From a virus, in the IMG/VR virus record IMGVR_UViG_3300043431_000731, positions 1-23,152 of that record: 23,152 bases of DNA. One strand, 5' to 3'. Numbering within the stretch: the stretch's first letter is position 1; the number at the start of each line of letters is the position of its first letter. The notes beneath the pieces were generated by a model, which did not search any database, was not told the DNA's origin, and worked only from the letters and a program-made list of their open reading frames with translations. The position numbers and the translations under genes are program-made. Of the stretch, positions 6,813 through 19,091 are shown piece by piece.

Positions 6813-7226
6813 TTAATCCTCCCCTATCTGGGATTCATTGAGTTTACGGGTTCTTTCATTCTCCTTCCAGACACCGTAATGTATCAATGCTAGGTCTGTC
6901 AAGACCTCCTCGATAGAAAGTTTTTCTCTCCGCTTGCGTCCTTTGTTTCTTGCCTTGCAGAGCATCTGTATCAGGGTTGGGTCTAGGTTATCAGCAGCAG
7001 TCTGGTAGAGACGGGCGAGTTTATAGATTTCAAAAATCTCTGCCTTGTCCGAATCGAGATAAAAAAACTCGACATCAGAGTTTCCAATGTCGAGTTCAGG
7101 TTCTTCTTCAGGTTCTCCGCCGATACTTAGCAGGAACTCCTCCTCGGTTTTCTTAGCAGATTCAACCTCTAGACGAAGCCTATCTTCTTTAGATTTCCGA
7201 GAAAGGAACTCCCCAACCCCTATGAG
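6813..7226 (-). CDS. Tail assembly chaperone, -1 frameshift extension (gpT part of GT)
   Basis: This segment has no convincing start of its own. It continues the upstream chaperone after a -1 slip at the AAAAAAC heptamer. The shifted frame reads LIGVGEFLSRKSKED and runs for 137 residues to a stop 3 bases before the tape measure start. The fusion would be about 347 residues. The segment is charged and acidic in the middle (EPEEEPELD), ending in a basic helix-rich region. As in lambda gpGT, the short and long forms are expected to bind the tape measure and recruit tube protein during tail assembly, and are absent from the virion. The longer open frame upstream (from 7346) overlaps gpG in another frame and is not needed to explain the protein. 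Confidence 0.85.
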   Translation of the reverse strand, partial: LIGVGEFLSRKSKEDRLRLEVESAKKTEEEFLLSIGGEPEEEPELDIGNSDVEFFYLDSDKAEIFEIYKLARLYQTAADNLDPTLIQMLCKARNKGRKRREKLSIEEVLTDLALIHYGVWKENERTRKLNESQIGED

Positions 7227-7855
7227 TTTTTTGCTGTAGCATCCGAGAGAATCTGGAGATTGTAAAGTACATTCTGCTGCGCACGGGCAAGGGAGGAACT
7301 CCAAGGATTGCTTAAGAGCAAAACGTCTAGGAGGGCATTTAGGCAATTAGCACCGTCTCCCCAGAGTTCCAAATTGTCCACGGCTATTCTTGTGTCTGGC
7401 ACTGTAAGCTTGGAGGTTGTCACCTTGCCAGATTCATCTGTTTCTTGAATCTCCAAGGGGACGTTCTTCAGGGCAATAATCTGACCACGAAGGATATTCA
7501 AGAGACTCTCCTCTTGTTTCTTGCGACTAATGCGCAGAGTCTCTGGAGAGTCCACAAAGGTCTTACCTGTCAGGAATCGTTCTCTACCTTCCACAACCTG
7601 AATATCAAGTTCATCTCTTGTCAGGTAACTGAAATACTCTTTAAGTCGAGAAACCTCAGTAGCCAACTCGACTGCATCAGTGAAACTCTGGCGTTGAATC
7701 TCTGCCATTTGATTCCGGATTCTCTCCGCCTCTGCCGTGTTATGGCGAGCGAACACAGCAATCATTGTCTCTGTCTTGCCTGCGCAATCAGGTTCAGACT
7801 TGATTTTCATTTCTACAGAAGGGGTCTGTAGAGCCACATATAATACTTTAGCCAT
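7220..7855 (-). CDS. Tail assembly chaperone (gpG-like, unshifted form)
   Basis: This 211-residue protein lies between the tail tube gene and the tape measure, where lambda gpG sits. Its start has an AGGAG site 8 bases upstream. I recognise no sequence motif; the assignment rests on position and on the programmed frameshift site at its 3' end, a hallmark of this gene pair in tailed phages. Its last codons (GCA AAA AAC TCA TAG) hold the slippery heptamer in the right phase just before the stop. The 5' leader shares 14 bases with the leader of the upstream Acb2-like gene. Confidence 0.85.
   Translation of the reverse strand: MAKVLYVALQTPSVEMKIKSEPDCAGKTETMIAVFARHNTAEAERIRNQMAEIQRQSFTDAVELATEVSRLKEYFSYLTRDELDIQVVEGRERFLTGKTFVDSPETLRISRKKQEESLLNILRGQIIALKNVPLEIQETDESGKVTTSKLTVPDTRIAVDNLELWGDGANCLNALLDVLLLSNPWSSSLARAQQNVLYNLQILSDATAKNS
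7226..7232 (-). other. -1 ribosomal frameshift heptamer A AAA AAC
   Basis: In the gpG frame the codons are gcA AAA AAC followed by TCA TAG. This fits the X XXY YYZ rule with X=A, Y=A, Z=C. Slipping back one base places both tRNAs on AAA and continues into the 137-codon frame that ends before the tape measure. The stop codon two codons downstream would otherwise end translation. Confidence 0.85.
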
Positions 7856-8183: not shown

Positions 8184-9578
8184 TTACACTGCTGAGTTCC
8201 ACATAAGGGTACTGAAACTGCAATTTTTAAACGTAAGTTCCTTTGCGGCTCTAGAGCCTACCTCAGTGTTTTTCACATTCACACACTGGAGTTTATCAAA
8301 GGTAACGTGAGCTTTTTTACCAGCTACTGTGCCAAAGGTCAAGGCAAATGCGAAGTAACCTTCTAGCATACCGCCCTCTGTCACGTTTGTATCAGGTTGC
8401 AGAACAGCCTGAATGTCATCTTCCAAGATGGTAATCATAACATCAGGAGTCATGGCAAGTTTCTCAAACCCAGTCTGACAGGAGTTATGCACACGTTCCC
8501 AAGAAAACCCGAAGAAGGCATTAGCAGTAATCTTGCTAAAACAAAAGTTCTTGACCTTGTTATCAACGTAGAAAGGAGTAGGCAAATCTGCATTACCTGA
8601 AGTGCTCAAGGCAACGCCTAGGTATTTCTTACTTCCATAGACTTCAAGCTGCGCCTGAGTGACATTCCGTAGACTCAGAGTTGGCATGACCTCGGTTTTC
8701 TGAACCCCGTAATCTGGTTCGATTTTCACAATTTCATCAGGGAATACCTCTGGACTTGCTGCCCAGTCCGCAGGAATAGATTTCATGTTCCACTTGAGCT
8801 TGACTCGTTTGTCAATCTCTAGCTCCAAATCCATAACCGCATTGCCGTCGAAACCCTTGTAGATTTTCTCAACAGTGTTGTCATCAGAAGAAACCGCAGT
8901 GACAAGAACCGTTGCCTTGGTTGTAGACGTCGTCTCGTTAGACACCTTGACCAGAGAAGACCCGTCTGAACCTGAGAATGTTACCGCTGCACCAGTGGAG
9001 CTAAACAAGACTGCCTGTGGGAAGTCCTCAATGTCAGCTGTACCGTTTGGAATACCAAGTGAAGGCAACAGTGTAGAACATCCTACGTTCATCACACGGT
9101 CAGTGAAATCCGTACGAGTGTCTCGAGAAAATTCACTACCTGCGTACTCCAGAGTATCACTTGAGATTTCTGTATCATACGTTGGCTCAAAGCAGGCTAG
9201 ACCATTAGTAGCGGCGATACCAGACAAGGTTAATACAGTAACCGTTGCACCTGATAGAATCACCCCAGAGCCAGAAGTCCCCCCTGTAATCGCAACAACA
9301 GACATTAGAGGGTTGACATCAATTGTTCCTATGGCATTAACTGCACCTGTGAAAATCCCAGAGACAGTTCCTGTGAAGGTTGTCGTAGACGCAGTACCTG
9401 TCAGAATCCCTGTACCAACTACACCACCTGACAGAGTAACACGAGTGGTAAATGTACCCTCGACAGCCGCAGACAACGTACCTGTCACACTCGCTGTACC
9501 TAATTTAGCAGGGATACCTTCCACTGCCTGAGCGGCAATCATAATGCCTCTCGCTTTTTTACTATAAGACTTAGCCAT
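8184..9578 (-). CDS. Major tail tube protein with Gly/Thr/Val-rich insertion
   Basis: A 464-residue protein located, as lambda gpV is, between the neck genes and the tail chaperones. The N-terminus (KKARGIMIAAQ-VEGIPA) and the later EPTYDTEISSDTLEYAG-SREDTRTDF-like stretch match the usual opening of long-tailed phage tube proteins. Between them, residues about 26-126 are low-complexity and rich in Gly, Thr, Ser and Val, with recurring TGT/SG-V patterns that suggest a beta-rich insert. Rings of this protein would stack to form the tail tube, and the insert could project from it. The start overlaps the preceding small gene by 8 bases and has a TTGGAGA site. A short GC-rich 4-base-pair hairpin follows the stop but lacks a T-run, so I do not call a terminator. 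Confidence 0.8.
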   Translation of the reverse strand: MAKSYSKKARGIMIAAQAVEGIPAKLGTASVTGTLSAAVEGTFTTRVTLSGGVVGTGILTGTASTTTFTGTVSGIFTGAVNAIGTIDVNPLMSVVAITGGTSGSGVILSGATVTVLTLSGIAATNGLACFEPTYDTEISSDTLEYAGSEFSRDTRTDFTDRVMNVGCSTLLPSLGIPNGTADIEDFPQAVLFSSTGAAVTFSGSDGSSLVKVSNETTSTTKATVLVTAVSSDDNTVEKIYKGFDGNAVMDLELEIDKRVKLKWNMKSIPADWAASPEVFPDEIVKIEPDYGVQKTEVMPTLSLRNVTQAQLEVYGSKKYLGVALSTSGNADLPTPFYVDNKVKNFCFSKITANAFFGFSWERVHNSCQTGFEKLAMTPDVMITILEDDIQAVLQPDTNVTEGGMLEGYFAFALTFGTVAGKKAHVTFDKLQCVNVKNTEVGSRAAKELTFKNCSFSTLMWNSAV

Positions 9579-9762
9579 TGGTTTTCTCCAAAGAAGGTTG
9601 TTTCATAGGTTGTTGTTTCGCAGGTGCAGAAACTGTCTCAGCCATTGGAACACCGCAGGGAGAACTTACCACAGGCACACCTGCGGCTCTCTCCCTCTCC
9701 CGTTGTTTCGCTGCGTTCTCAGTCTGAACCTGCATGAAGGTTTTTGTATCAAGGCTTGTCAT
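9571..9762 (-). CDS. Small hypothetical protein upstream of the tail tube gene
   Basis: A 63-residue protein, MTSLDTKTF at its start, with a helical, Arg/Glu-rich middle (KQRERERAAG) and a Pro/Gln/Lys-rich end. I chose the start at 9762 because GGAG lies 6 bases upstream; the ATG at 9774, four codons earlier, has no clear site. It overlaps the tube gene by 8 bases, so the two are probably translated together. It directly follows the hairpin at 9793-9821. I do not recognise it. Its coupling to the tube gene hints at a role in tail assembly, but that is only an inference. Confidence 0.6.
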   Translation of the reverse strand: MTSLDTKTFMQVQTENAAKQRERERAAGVPVVSSPCGVPMAETVSAPAKQQPMKQPSLEKTNG

Positions 9763-9792
9763 AGATGTCTCCATGATTGTTGTTAAAGAAAG

Positions 9793-9821
9793 TTTGCATA
9801 GCTTAGAGTCAGCTATGCAAA
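9793..9821 (-). terminator. Perfect 11-bp hairpin between neck genes and tail tube genes
   Basis: TTTGCATAGCT and AGCTATGCAAA form a perfect 11-base-pair stem around a 7-base loop, inside the 64-base gap between two genes. On the minus strand it is followed by ACTTTCTTTAAC, a broken T-run. The stem has moderate GC content. It could be a leaky terminator, an RNase processing site or a 3' protecting stem that lets tube-protein mRNA differ in amount from neck mRNA. A protein-binding operator is also possible because the inverted repeat is perfect. Confidence 0.6.
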
Positions 9822-9826
9822 GAATA

Positions 9827-10255
9827 TCACACTTGTGAACTTTGAACCCTTGGGGAGTCTATTTGCCAATAGTCCACCCACCAGATTCTTCCATTTGCAA
9901 TGCCCTTCTTGCCTCCCTTGTCCATGAAAGTGGCTGTGTAATCTGCATCAGGAATGACAGATACAGGAATCCAATTGTTCACAATGTTGTACAGAGAAGA
10001 CCAGAAGGCTGGGAAGTCCTCAAGGCTGCAAGTGTATTGGAGGTAGAAGATAAACGCAAGGTCTTGGGAGAGCTTGATGCAAGAGTCTGAAGACGAACCA
10101 TCTGACAGGTCGCCTTGAGATTCTACGGAATGATAACCAACCTGCACTCTCCCTTCCTCGTCCTTATTCGCAATCGAGGGTTCTTTTCCAGAGTCCATAG
10201 CTGCACGGATTCCCTCAGCAACCAGAGTGTCTACAAGGTCTGTCAGGTCAAACAT
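9827..10255 (-). CDS. Putative tail terminator protein
   Basis: A 142-residue protein placed where lambda gpU lies, just before the tail tube gene. It opens with a helix (DLTDLVDTLVAEGIRAAMD), then alternating strands, and ends with a WWVDYWQIDSP motif similar to the strand that closes many tail terminator proteins. Such proteins cap the finished tail tube and provide the face that docks to the head. The start overlaps the previous gene by 8 bases and has only a weak AGG site, so coupling to the upstream gene is likely. Family assignment rests mainly on position and size. Confidence 0.55.
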   Translation of the reverse strand: MFDLTDLVDTLVAEGIRAAMDSGKEPSIANKDEEGRVQVGYHSVESQGDLSDGSSSDSCIKLSQDLAFIFYLQYTCSLEDFPAFWSSLYNIVNNWIPVSVIPDADYTATFMDKGGKKGIANGRIWWVDYWQIDSPRVQSSQV

Positions 10256-11293: not shown

Positions 11294-12352
11294 TTACACC
11301 GCCCCAGTGCGGACGCCGAAGGTGGAGTCAATCTTGGTGTGTGCCATTAAAGGTGCAGACTGCAACATGATTTGTGGATTCGCAGGGTCTTCACTCATCC
11401 AGTTACGCATGAAGTACTCCATGCCCATGTAGTTCGCATTAGCGTCTTCGATAGAGGCAAAGCACTGAAAACCGTAACTTGCATCTGGGATACCGATTAC
11501 CGCGTCAGTTGGTACATACAACGTCTCTACACCGTCTAAACCAATATAGGTGTCAGTGTAGGTATAGATTGGAATACCAGTTCCCAAGAAAGTACCACGG
11601 AAAGTCACCCCGCCCATACCTTTAGGAGTCGCAACCTGAAAGTACGGGCTGTTTTCCATAGTTGGTAGATGCAGAGAAGGCAGATTCACCATGTTGGTAT
11701 ACTTGGTGTCTTTTTTCAGATATCTCCAAGCTGCGTTACCCATCACGATTTTTTTAATCGGTGCAGATTTTGGCAAGTTAATCCAGTCTTCTAGGTCATC
11801 CCAAGGACTGACAGATGTATTTCCAGCAAGCCACCGTGCAGTGGTTAAAAGGGTCTTGGTGTTATTAGCATCTCGACCAAAGGAAATCGTTGCATCCGCT
11901 GGAAGAATACCTGCACCTGCCATAGAGTAGCTGTCAGCAAGCAACAACCCAGTTGCCATGATTTCCAGACTTCTACGAAACCGAGTGATTAATAAAGCCG
12001 CCTTGTCTACCATAGTGGCTGCGTAGTTTTCCGCAGGGTTCAGGGGTTTGCTCATAGGCTGTCCAGCTCTACGAGTACGGACATGATTCGGTAGAATCAA
12101 CTCCTTGTCTTTGATATACCCAGGTTTGAAACTCTCTGTTTGATAACCCTTGGAGGTTCTTGCAACTCCTGGAAGCCGCGCAGATTGGAACACAGAGATA
12201 CGTTTATCTGCTTCGATTTTATCAAAGTAGATTCTGTCTTCATCCGTGATATGTTGCGCAGAGAAGTTCAAGGACATGAAAGGCTGAAAATCTAGGTTTC
12301 CTTCCTGTAATATTCCAGTAATCTCTGCATGAGTGTAAAAGTTTAGGGACAT
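11294..12352 (-). CDS. Major capsid protein, gpE family
   Basis: A 352-residue protein close in length to lambda gpE (341). I set the start at 12352 (MSLNFYTHAEITGIL), which has AAGGAG 8 bases upstream; the longer frame from 12394 overlaps the decoration gene and has no site. Family-like features include the N-terminal FQPF, an IYFDKIEADKR stretch with the invariant-looking FD, and FKPGYIKDKELI. The C-terminal part has YGFQCFASIEDANANYMGMEYFMRNW and DPANPQIMLQSAPL, typical of the end of this family. It forms the icosahedral shell. The preceding genes supply decoration protein, scaffold and protease. Confidence 0.9.
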   Translation of the reverse strand: MSLNFYTHAEITGILQEGNLDFQPFMSLNFSAQHITDEDRIYFDKIEADKRISVFQSARLPGVARTSKGYQTESFKPGYIKDKELILPNHVRTRRAGQPMSKPLNPAENYAATMVDKAALLITRFRRSLEIMATGLLLADSYSMAGAGILPADATISFGRDANNTKTLLTTARWLAGNTSVSPWDDLEDWINLPKSAPIKKIVMGNAAWRYLKKDTKYTNMVNLPSLHLPTMENSPYFQVATPKGMGGVTFRGTFLGTGIPIYTYTDTYIGLDGVETLYVPTDAVIGIPDASYGFQCFASIEDANANYMGMEYFMRNWMSEDPANPQIMLQSAPLMAHTKIDSTFGVRTGAV

Positions 12353-12362
12353 GGGTTTCTCC

Positions 12363-12764
12363 TTAGAAGCCAGCAGTGTTGAAGATAACATCAATCTCTG
12401 TCATGTCGAAACAAGCTTGTTTCTTCGCGTCTGAGTCGATGGTTGTAGGGTTGGCAGCCTGAATGATTGCCCAGTTGATTGCACCGTTGTAGACTTTCGC
12501 CTCGGTGTAAACCGCAATCAAGGTATCAGTGGCTTTAATAGGCAAGCCTAGTTGTTCGATAAAACCTGAACCGTGCATAGGTACAGTCAGACCGATAATC
12601 ACATCCGCACCTGATGTTGCAGGGATGATTTTTTTATCTGCATTCCGTTTCATAGGCGTAAACGCAGGGATGACCGCGACATTGGCTAGAGCCAACATGG
12701 TTTTGGTTTCTACGTCTACACTAGCAAGACTAGTTTCTGGTAGAAAGGTGGCTTCTAAAAACAT
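12363..12764 (-). CDS. Head decoration protein, gpD family
   Basis: A 133-residue protein immediately before the capsid gene, with a strong GGAGG site. Typical gpD-like features are the VIPAFTPMKRN start of the domain, IIGLTVPMHG, a central TDTLIAVYTEAKVYNGAINW strand pair and the C-terminal QACFDMTEIDVIF. Such proteins form trimers that clamp the expanded capsid and stabilise it against the pressure of packaged DNA. Confidence 0.85.
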   Translation of the reverse strand: MFLEATFLPETSLASVDVETKTMLALANVAVIPAFTPMKRNADKKIIPATSGADVIIGLTVPMHGSGFIEQLGLPIKATDTLIAVYTEAKVYNGAINWAIIQAANPTTIDSDAKKQACFDMTEIDVIFNTAGF

Positions 12765-15747: not shown

Positions 15748-17733
15748 TTAGATTCCTAGTCCAGAGGTTACGGATTTGGTCGCTATTGCAGAGGTTCTGA
15801 TTTTCAAAATACTGTCCTCTACCTGCTTCCAGTGTTTTTCTTGGTAAGTGTGAAGTTTTAACCCGTAAGAAGCGTGTAGGTCAAGGACTTCGCAATCGAA
15901 AGCTTCATTCCTACGTCCTGCAATCAAGGTGAAACGGCTAGGGTTTCCTTTCTCTCTCTCGGAAAGAAGTTGCTCCTCGAAGTCCTCTCTGACGTCTCTG
16001 TAATGATACGCTCGGTCTTTGATTCCAGACAGCGGCTGTTTCAGGCTCTTGTCTCGGAAATCCTTAACTGTCAGGGCGAACTTGCGGAGAACCTCTCGCT
16101 TGGCTTTTTGAACCCCGATGACGTACAGATTCACCTTCATGGTCTCGTAGAGTTTCTTACGTTCACCTCGTCCAGTATCTGCCTCTGGGTCTGCTGGCAT
16201 GGTGAAAATCTCTCTGGCAGTGACACCAGCAGAACTATCTCCCTTGGTGGCAAAGGTATAGGGTTTCAGTTTGCTGATTTTCTTAACCCAACCGTAGACA
16301 ACGGATGTCCAGTTCCCTGTATCAATCGACATTGCAGAAATCTGCATGAGAATCGGCTTTTCCTCAGTGTGAAACGCATGAGGTATCTTGGACAGATAGA
16401 GTTCCTCGAGTTGTGTCCAGACATCATCCGCAGGGTCAGGGGGATTACCGAATATCTCTCCCCACCAGACTTTCCAGACAAGTCCATTTCTGCCCCTTGC
16501 ATTGATAACCACGGCTAGGCGGTTGAGTTGCACGTCTACGCCCATTGTCAGGACAAGTCCACCTGCTGGTACAGTCATCTCAGGGTAATTCAACCTGCAC
16601 AGAATAAGCGTCTTAACATCCATGTTTGAATCCTTCGGTGCATAACTAAGACCTACAGAGTTATTCGTAAATGTCTTCAGTTTCGCATCTTTACCTTTAG
16701 CTTGCTCAACCTCGGCTTCGAGTTTTTTGGACATCAGGGAGACCATAGAAGCCCCAGCCCCGAAGGTACTCATTAAGCTGTTAAACGCAAACCCTACGAA
16801 GTGAGATTGTGCGGTCTCCAGCCAACCCTCATCGTGGTACTTTGTAGACTCCAGCAAGTTGCTGTTTTTCTGTTCCTCTGTCCACCTGCTCCCACAGTGA
16901 GGACACTCATAGTATGCTGTTTCTGGGTCATAGATTCCAAACGTTTTACTGACGCGTTTGTCTAGATAAACATCTGCTTTCAGGTTGTCGAACCCAAAGA
17001 CATGGAACTCCTTGCAGTCATGGCATCTGCACATGAAAACAAATTTGTTCGAGAGTTCATAGGCATCGTCAACATTCGAGAAACCCTCCTCTACAGGTGT
17101 GCCTCCGTAGATTAGCAACGAGTTAGTGAAGGTCTTGCAGCGTTCGAGAAAGATGTCCAGACTTCCCCCCTGCCCCTTCAAGTCCCTGGAGAACCTATCT
17201 GGCTCTTCTGCAATCAGGAATGCCGCAGAGGAACTCGTGAGACCGTTTACACTTCCTGCGGAGCTAAACTTAAGCCACCCACCTGGGTATTTGAAAAAAT
17301 CAAACCTAGACTTACTCGGGTCTCCAATCAACGCCGTCAGAGTTGGAGAGTTCTTAACCGCAGGTCGCCACTTTTCTTCAGAATAGCTCTTTGCTAGGCT
17401 CTCACAGGGAAACGCAATGATGATATTCTGCGGGTCGTTGACGATTTTGTTTTCTATAAAGAAATTCACTATCTGTGTCCAGCCGATTTGTGCAGACTTC
17501 TTGGCGATAATAACCCTTGTCCCTGGGTCGTCAGCATATTTAAGAAAACCCTTGAAACAGGGAGTTCTGTCACAAGAGACCTTGCCTGGATTTGCCGTAA
17601 CCTCAGATGATAGCACGATGTTCTTCTCTGCGTACTCACGGGTTGAGAGACGTTCTGTGGCAAACAGCAAGCTAAACAATCTGCCTAGAAACGCTCGCTC
17701 TGTCACAAACTTAAGTCCTGTATCTTCACTCAT
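15748..17733 (-). CDS. terL: Terminase large subunit, GpA family
   Basis: A 661-residue packaging motor and nuclease, overlapping terS by 8 bases. Walker A-like KSAQIGWT is at 79-86, the Walker B-like strand FLIAEEPDRF at about 172-181, and coupling motif IYGGTP at 208-213. A zinc-binding-type cluster has C235, C237, C240 and C277, C280. The nuclease has the expected acidic residues D400 (MGVDVQ), D471 (SIDTGNW) and D613 (RRNEAFD). It is the length expected of the family. The Walker B has Glu where the usual Asp sits (E-E instead of D-E). It pulls DNA into the procapsid and cuts concatemers at the ends of packaging. Confidence 0.95.
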   Translation of the reverse strand: MSEDTGLKFVTERAFLGRLFSLLFATERLSTREYAEKNIVLSSEVTANPGKVSCDRTPCFKGFLKYADDPGTRVIIAKKSAQIGWTQIVNFFIENKIVNDPQNIIIAFPCESLAKSYSEEKWRPAVKNSPTLTALIGDPSKSRFDFFKYPGGWLKFSSAGSVNGLTSSSAAFLIAEEPDRFSRDLKGQGGSLDIFLERCKTFTNSLLIYGGTPVEEGFSNVDDAYELSNKFVFMCRCHDCKEFHVFGFDNLKADVYLDKRVSKTFGIYDPETAYYECPHCGSRWTEEQKNSNLLESTKYHDEGWLETAQSHFVGFAFNSLMSTFGAGASMVSLMSKKLEAEVEQAKGKDAKLKTFTNNSVGLSYAPKDSNMDVKTLILCRLNYPEMTVPAGGLVLTMGVDVQLNRLAVVINARGRNGLVWKVWWGEIFGNPPDPADDVWTQLEELYLSKIPHAFHTEEKPILMQISAMSIDTGNWTSVVYGWVKKISKLKPYTFATKGDSSAGVTAREIFTMPADPEADTGRGERKKLYETMKVNLYVIGVQKAKREVLRKFALTVKDFRDKSLKQPLSGIKDRAYHYRDVREDFEEQLLSEREKGNPSRFTLIAGRRNEAFDCEVLDLHASYGLKLHTYQEKHWKQVEDSILKIRTSAIATKSVTSGLGI

Positions 17734-18286
17734 CAGATTCTCCTAGGTCGATTTCCTTGTTCATCTCGTTCTCTACGAAGTTCTCCAGTTCCTGTGTACT
17801 CTTGGCAATCATGGTTCTACCAAGTTCACTCCAGTGAGTCAGAAGCCCGTCAATGTCAGGGACTGTTTCTGGGAACTTCCGTGCAATCATATTGAGTTGC
17901 CCTCGCATCAAGGTAAAGTAACTCTCGAACTCAATGGCTAGGTCAGAACTGTCTACGAGTTCACCGCGCTTGACCCGTAGATTCAACCACTCAGATTCTG
18001 TCTTGGCTCTATCGAGTTGAATCTTTTGCAACAGACTGGCTTCTGCAACGTTACTTGCTTTCTTACTGGCTCTATTCTGCAAAAACTCAGTGTAATGCTT
18101 TATACTTGCCCTGTAGGTAGCGTCGCTATTCGGTGGCAGCTTCCCATCCTGCCTCATTTGATAAATCAAGGAAACGTTCTTGGCAAACAACCCAGACAAT
18201 ACTGCGGGGGATGCTGGTTCATCTAGGTTAATCATCTGCCCACGTCCCGCAGTGTGTACAGACCCTAGGCTCTCGTCATTAGTCAT
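17726..18286 (-). CDS. terS: Terminase small subunit (Nu1/DUF1441-like)
   Basis: A 186-residue protein, first gene of the leftward operon. The chosen start at 18286 (MTNDESLGSV) has AAGAGG upstream; the longer frame to 18361 would run through the divergent intergenic region. Residues about 27-55 (AVLSGLFAKNVSLIYQMRQDGKLP) read like a winged-helix DNA-binding head. A long helix (79-105, LLQKIQLDRAKTESEWLNLRVKRGEL) and a C-terminal acidic tail follow, typical of small terminases of this type. It recognises the packaging site and activates TerL. Confidence 0.85.
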   Translation of the reverse strand: MTNDESLGSVHTAGRGQMINLDEPASPAVLSGLFAKNVSLIYQMRQDGKLPPNSDATYRASIKHYTEFLQNRASKKASNVAEASLLQKIQLDRAKTESEWLNLRVKRGELVDSSDLAIEFESYFTLMRGQLNMIARKFPETVPDIDGLLTHWSELGRTMIAKSTQELENFVENEMNKEIDLGESDE

Positions 18287-18362
18287 AATAACCTCTTGTG
18301 TTTTAGGGATTCCTTTTTTACTATATAACCTCAACTCAACTCCTACACAAGAGGTCATCATG
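18284..18362. promoter_or_regulatory. Divergent start region with symmetric inverted repeat
   Basis: Only 73 bases separate the start codons of terS (minus) and the tail-tip operon (plus). The bases around each start match: ACACAAGAGGT-Y-AT-Y-ATG occurs on plus (18345-18362) and minus (18301-18284), an 18-base inverted repeat with two mismatches. At its centre, ACTATATAAC (18320-18329) can be read as TATAAC on plus and TATAGT on minus, overlapping -10-like boxes of a bidirectional promoter giving leaders of about 25 bases. I find no good -35 box, so an activator or phage-modified polymerase may be needed. The repeats hold the ribosome binding sites, so matched translation rates are likely. 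Confidence 0.5.
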
Positions 18363-19091
18363 GCGGAGCTTTATAAATTTACAGACGGAGTGCAGAGTGT
18401 GGGTTTCTCCCCTCAGCTTCTGACAGAAAACTGGGCAGGTCTAGTCTACACTGCTACTACCGTTTCACGAAGTTCACTCAGTCTCTCAGGGAATTTGGTG
18501 AAAAGTCAGGTTACGTTCACCTTCCCCTCCAGTACAGACTTTGCGAAACGAAGGGTCTTTGACCTGCCGAGTGTTCACTGGTTTGTGCAGATATATCAAG
18601 ACAAAGTCTTGCTCTGGACTGGACGGGTTATCAATGCGACATTGTCTGGGTCGAAAATCACGATTCTCACAGACAGCACAGAGAAAACCGATTCCCGAAA
18701 CCCTACAGGCGCACGGTTTACCTACCACTGCTGGAAAAACCTATACTCCCTAACCTGTGGGGCAGACAAAGCAGCAGTAAAGACAACCATGACACTAGCG
18801 GTTGCACCCTCTGGAACAACGGTTACACTCCCAACCTCTTATCCCCTGAATCACTTCTCAGGTGGAATCATCGAAAAAGCAGGAGAGAGCAGGCGGATTA
18901 TCCGAAGTGCAGGGACTACTCTGGAGATTTCCTCCCCCTTCATTAGCCAGACTGTCGGCAGTGTAGACCTTTACCCTGGGTGTAACCTTACAAGTGCAGA
19001 CTGCCAAGGAAAGTTCGGGAACATTCTGAACTTTGGAGGCTTTGAACACATCCCCTTAACTAACCCCATTGAAAGGACAGGTTTACTATGA
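18360..19091 (+). CDS. Tail tip protein, BR0599/DUF2163-like (gpL analogue)
   Basis: A 243-residue protein starting at 18360, with an AAGAGG site; the longer frame upstream overlaps terS and is rejected. The C-terminus (CQGKFGNILNFGGFEHIPLTNP, 215-236) is the hallmark of the BR0599-type tail protein. Four cysteines, C124, C133, C208 and C215, are spaced C-x8-C and C-x6-C. From memory, this is the spacing of the Fe-S-binding cysteines of lambda gpL, so a metal site is likely. It would sit in the tail tip between the distal-tail ring and the hub. It is the first gene of the rightward operon, and overlaps the next as ATGA. Confidence 0.82.
   Translation: MAELYKFTDGVQSVGFSPQLLTENWAGLVYTATTVSRSSLSLSGNLVKSQVTFTFPSSTDFAKRRVFDLPSVHWFVQIYQDKVLLWTGRVINATLSGSKITILTDSTEKTDSRNPTGARFTYHCWKNLYSLTCGADKAAVKTTMTLAVAPSGTTVTLPTSYPLNHFSGGIIEKAGESRRIIRSAGTTLEISSPFISQTVGSVDLYPGCNLTSADCQGKFGNILNFGGFEHIPLTNPIERTGLL

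Follow-up and report, generated by a model that had tools for sequence, protein, structure and literature searches.

A candidate bidirectional promoter at the head-to-head junction of two structural operons in a phage fragment

How do the start regions of two divergent genes come to form a single inverted repeat, and what does the gap between them do? The question is raised by the 23,152-base IMG/VR record IMGVR_UViG_3300043431_000731, apparently a fragment of an uncultivated tailed phage, whose whole length we refer to as the window. A leftward and a rightward block of genes lie head to head here at 18287-18359. The leftward block includes terS, a GpA-type TerL, a lambda-family portal, an S49 protease, an E-type capsid protein and the tape measure; to the right come genes for a PHROG 778 tail assembly protein, for a member of PHROG 1180 and for a large tail protein. 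The leftward head/tail operon begins with terS, the terminase small subunit gene (17726-18286, minus strand; PHROG 57, E 1.3e-4), and the rightward tail-tip operon with the tail assembly protein gene (18360-19091, plus strand; PHROG 778, Pfam BR0599). A search of the 23,152-base window found no Rfam family and no tRNA, a nearest-DNA search with the window gave no match among named phages, and a TerL profile search of prokaryote genomes confirmed no relative.

Elsewhere on the minus strand, we observed two overlapping ORFs upstream of the tape measure gene (7220-7855 and 6813-7346). The former ends right past an in-frame A AAA AAC heptamer (AAAAAAC, 7232-7226) and the latter lies in the -1 frame relative to it; by comparison with known phage pairs, this is the arrangement to be expected of a frameshifted tail assembly chaperone pair. 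A 15-pair stem-loop leading into a T-rich tail within ORF 6813-7346 (7065-7097, minus strand) is terminator-like or may be an RNA element, and, between ORFs 9827-10255 and 9571-9774, a hairpin of 11 pairs with a T-rich tail (9793-9821, minus strand) is possibly a partial terminator.

Two start regions arranged as an inverted repeat

The original prediction described 18-base arms that repeat the ribosome-binding and start context on both strands, with overlapping -10-like boxes at the centre of symmetry. Indeed, 18284-18301 and 18345-18362 are complementary at 16 of 18 positions with 43 nt between the arms, and the repeat centre (18323) falls within ACTATATAAC at 18320-18329. Read 5' to 3', the left arm is ACACAAGAGGTTATTATG on the minus strand, towards terS, and the right arm is ACACAAGAGGTCATCATG on the plus strand, towards the tail gene; each reads into its own gene as ACACAAGAGGTnATnATG. 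Both genes have the Shine-Dalgarno (SD) sequence AAGAGG 5 nt upstream of ATG, read from the sequence at 18292-18297 (minus strand) for terS and at 18349-18354 (plus strand) for the tail gene. The left arm thus spans the start codon, spacer and SD of terS on the minus strand, and the right arm the SD, spacer and start codon of the tail gene on the plus strand. In addition, and absent from the original description, each arm carries a -35-like box of the predicted promoter that points away from it across the gap: that of the tail gene in the left arm (plus strand) and that of terS in the right arm (minus strand).

This is the sole inverted repeat in the window with at least 16/18 matches and a loop of 3-100 nt, compared with a mean of 0.2 such repeats in 20 dinucleotide shuffles, of which two had any. 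The arm pattern matches the whole 23,152-base record at the two arms only, and the arms are the most similar (16/18; runner-up 14/18) of the 231 pairs that the window's 22 gene-start contexts make. Part of this likeness is owed to a shared signal, namely ATG, SD and the word CAAG; with 10 of the 18 positions fixed by the signal, the binomial chance of at least six matches in the remaining eight is about 0.004-0.025.

Conservation of the gap and its promoter-like boxes

Scanning viral contigs by protein and by profile yielded relatives with a complete junction in L004, L006 and L008, whose TerS and tail proteins are 67-81% and 63-68% identical to those of the window. A further contig, L005, stops short of the tail gene and matches L008 at 64/68 positions, so that the panel consists of four distinct related junctions, which are not independent samples, and one near-copy. 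In the order window, L004, L006 and L008, kept below, the junctions measure 79, 81, 80 and 80 bp including both start codons, and their arms match as an exact repeat at 16, 13, 8 and 6 of 18 positions. The symmetric pair is therefore not conserved letter for letter; what the relatives retain is a CAAG/CTTG core and the geometry of the predicted promoters.

CAAG occurs within 20 nt upstream of all nine junction starts and of none of 38 starts elsewhere (Fisher p 7e-10), in a post hoc test for a word picked after being noticed, with homologous genes and a few uncertain starts among the 38. At least one of the 38, that of ORF 6813-7346, probably belongs to a frameshift extension and is no true start, and the TTG-start ORF 11294-12394 may start elsewhere. 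Within the window alone the counts are 2/2 and 0/20 (p 0.0043), and the background frequency of CAAG is about 10% of 20-mers. At the other 20 window starts the prevailing words are TAGGA, GGAGG and the like, and CAAG is absent from the 20 nt ahead of every one of them; given its distribution across the panel, the junction SDs lie outside the phage's usual set. In each junction gene CAAG adjoins or overlaps the SD, and its complement provides the -35-like TTG for the opposite gene. The tail gene of L008 has CAAG without a good SD, and the complement of one of this gene's CAAGs is the predicted terS -35; this is expected if the word was retained for a promoter. We infer that CAAG is held by two demands at once, translation of one gene and, as predicted from the sequence, transcription of the opposite one.

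In the window, the predicted tail promoter combines the -35 box TTGTGT (18296-18301, plus strand), a spacer of 17 and the -10 box TACTAT (18319-18324, plus strand). The predicted terS promoter combines TTGTGT (18345-18350, minus strand), a spacer of 19 and TATAGT (18320-18325, minus strand). Each -35 box overlaps the SD of the opposite gene by 2 bp (18296-18297 for terS, 18349-18350 for the tail gene). Placed 7 nt past the -10 boxes, transcription would start at 18331 (plus strand, leader 29 nt) for the tail mRNA and at 18313 (minus strand, leader 27 nt) for the terS mRNA, 18 bp apart. An alternative terS -10 register, TATATA at 18322-18327 (minus strand), has a fitting spacer of 17 but lacks the final T, and the start separation becomes 16 bp. 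Measured against the sigma70 yardstick (-35 near TTGACA, spacer 16-18, -10 near TATAAT), the -35 boxes are weak past TTG, TTGTGT matching 3/6 positions of a consensus that may not be the host's. A standard consensus scan of the window (at least 9/12) listed neither junction promoter.

The overlapping -10-like boxes foreseen at the centre recur with the same place and register in all three relatives. The central words are TATAGTA, TATAATA, CATATTA and TATAATA; each yields a -10 box on both strands, in which -11A of one pairs with -7T of the other, and this reciprocal overlap, with starts 18 bp apart, is present in 4/4 complete junctions. Mean pairwise identity of the four junctions is 81% in the -10 dyad, compared with 48% and 57% in the flanking spacers. 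The tail-direction -35 reads TTGTGT, TTGTAT, TTGTTA and TTGCCT, with a spacer of 17 in all, and the terS-direction -35 reads TTGTGT, TTGCAA, TTGAAG and TTGCAG with spacers of 19, 19, 19 and 18, the 19 of three junctions being long for sigma70.

We scored promoters with ad hoc weights, set after the sigma70 consensus. When the register was allowed to vary, the top joint pair of promoters in the window, L004 and L008 had starts 18 bp apart and occupied the same place; in L006 the 18-bp pair came third (14.2 vs 14.5 and 14.3). TTGNNN-17-TANNAT was the top single site on the tail strand of all four junctions, and a TTGNNN-18/19-TATAAT-like site on the terS strand of three of the four. Across the loci, the junction was the highest-scoring bidirectional site of L004 (10,152 positions) and L008 (5,232 positions), ranked second of 9,824 positions in L006, and among 23,103 positions of the window came 6th by total and 2nd by its weaker side. 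Junction shuffles reached the observed total 31, 1, 52 and 0 times per 1000, the window's own result being modest and the L006 total being that of an edge site in the whole locus (14.3) and of the core site within the junction alone (14.2). Crude scores for the terS/tail directions were close (7.0/7.1, 8.1/7.7, 6.6/7.6 and 8.2/8.2).

Viral contigs scanned for a DNA pattern of the tail-side architecture followed by an MAE start gave 30 stretches, three of them the known junctions of L004, L006 and L008. The remaining 27 stand at the starts of different proteins and resemble unrelated families or coincidental matches; the tail-side pattern alone is thus not specific. In Marinobacter phage PS3 (TerL 33% identical), no divergent junction lies beside the TerL-proximal genes. 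In a separate group, L026-L029, the gene for a TerS 50% identical (e.g. L029:2902-3555) likewise comes first on its side of a divergent pair and faces a different leftward gene across about 90 bp, so that terS stands at a divergent junction with another partner in a second lineage; in L029, the one member scored, the best sites of the two strands have no shared core.

Taken together, the shared -10 register, the placement of TTG and the confinement of CAAG to junction starts are best read as marks of a promoter. We consider it probable that the gap is one compact bidirectional sigma70-type promoter that would start both structural operons, with -35 and SD signals superimposed at both ends. The idea of a shared divergent start region accordingly stands in outline, with the promoter architecture rather than the repeat of ribosome-binding sites as the element that was kept.

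Other readings of the symmetry

The arms might simply be two ordinary strong ribosome-binding sites, alike by chance and served by one or more promoters nearby, their symmetry having no function. The fading of the exact repeat in the relatives (13, 8 and 6 of 18) would fit, as would the general resemblance among ribosome-binding sites of one phage, whose next-best pairs reach 14/18. However, such sites would not account for CAAG at 9/9 junction starts and 0/38 internal ones, nor for the preserved distance to the -10 boxes, and we regard this explanation as unlikely. The repeat is most likely an overlay of signals rather than an operator. A dimeric phage or host regulator of both operons could in principle bind 18-bp arms symmetric about a promoter, but the arms differ between relatives outside the CAAG core, both cover start codons, and no further copy occurs elsewhere in the 23-kb record; we find this the least credible of the alternatives.

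An RNA switch would operate if a transcript reading through the gap folded its arms and hid the SD, so that only transcripts begun inside the gap were translated. The 79-nt RNA of the window does fold well (z -3.7 for the plus and -6.3 for the minus strand), and that of L006 folds too (z -3.2 and -2.2), but L008 shows no such folding (z -0.1 and -0.6) and in L004 one strand scores 0.2 and the other -1.7. Pairing that would hide the SD is accordingly present in the window and L006, weak or absent in L004 and absent in L008. The switch would also require antisense transcripts arising inside terS or the tail gene, the leaders that the predicted starts would give show no special structure (z -0.40 and -0.35), and the core pairing already follows from the -35/SD overlay. 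We hold such a switch to be very improbable, and all three readings rank below the bidirectional promoter.

A shared promoter and its known counterparts

On the bidirectional promoter reading, a host sigma70-like RNA polymerase would bind either way over one common -10 region. Because -11A pairs with the opposite -7T, starts would lie 18 bp apart and one orientation would be occupied at a time. Each direction would use its own -35-like TTG, on the complement of CAAG at the SD of the opposite gene, and CAAG/CTTG at each end would act in translation on one strand and in transcription on its complement. Such double use would explain why the region looks like two identical ribosome-binding sites set in an inverted repeat. 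The resulting mRNAs would have leaders of 29 and 27 nt and similar ribosome-binding sites, and head and tip genes would be co-expressed. More tentatively, and with some doubt on our part, the SD region may be kept as CAAG for the sake of the opposite -35, and exclusive polymerase binding may hold the supply of head and tail-tip proteins in proportion; one operon's transcription and the opposite operon's translation could then not drift apart, since they would share nucleotides.

Bidirectional promoters as such are already known. In bacteria they are defined by pairs of divergent RNAs whose mapped 5' ends lie 7-25 bp from each other, and PMC10268837 and PMC12825309 place starts most often 18 bp apart owing to -7/-11 pairing. 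Their description in bacteria is recent, and according to the latter source they have hardly been studied; it reports basal transcription in E. coli as too low for competition at the five promoters tested, and adds that one direction, when strongly activated, can repress the other and that interference can lower noise. A limited literature search on bidirectional phage promoters and SD/-35 overlay turned up no account of the double -35/SD overlay, and we regard the junction as a well-marked candidate bidirectional promoter in which the overlay at both ends appears unusual. If this is true, it would be a naturally occurring example in which both sides yield functional mRNAs, with an architecture common to diverged relatives and a double use of -35 and SD at both ends; it would allow a clear-cut test of whether polymerase binding at a shared site is used to set the ratio of two operons (capsid and tail-tip), and could serve as a compact two-way expression part.

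In phage rV5, a gap between divergent gene blocks is likewise predicted to start both (PMC3606486), although the rV5 passage, unlike the junction described here, mentions no shared -10, no symmetry of ribosome-binding sites and no fixed register. With the bacterial bidirectional promoters described in PMC10268837 and PMC12825309 (both citing Warman et al. 2021), our junction has in common overlapping opposite-strand -10 boxes with -7/-11 pairing, predicted starts 18 bp apart and the steric exclusion that we propose. It differs from them in having TTGNNN on both sides, on the complement of the opposing SD region, and in that both predicted phage RNAs would begin major structural operons.
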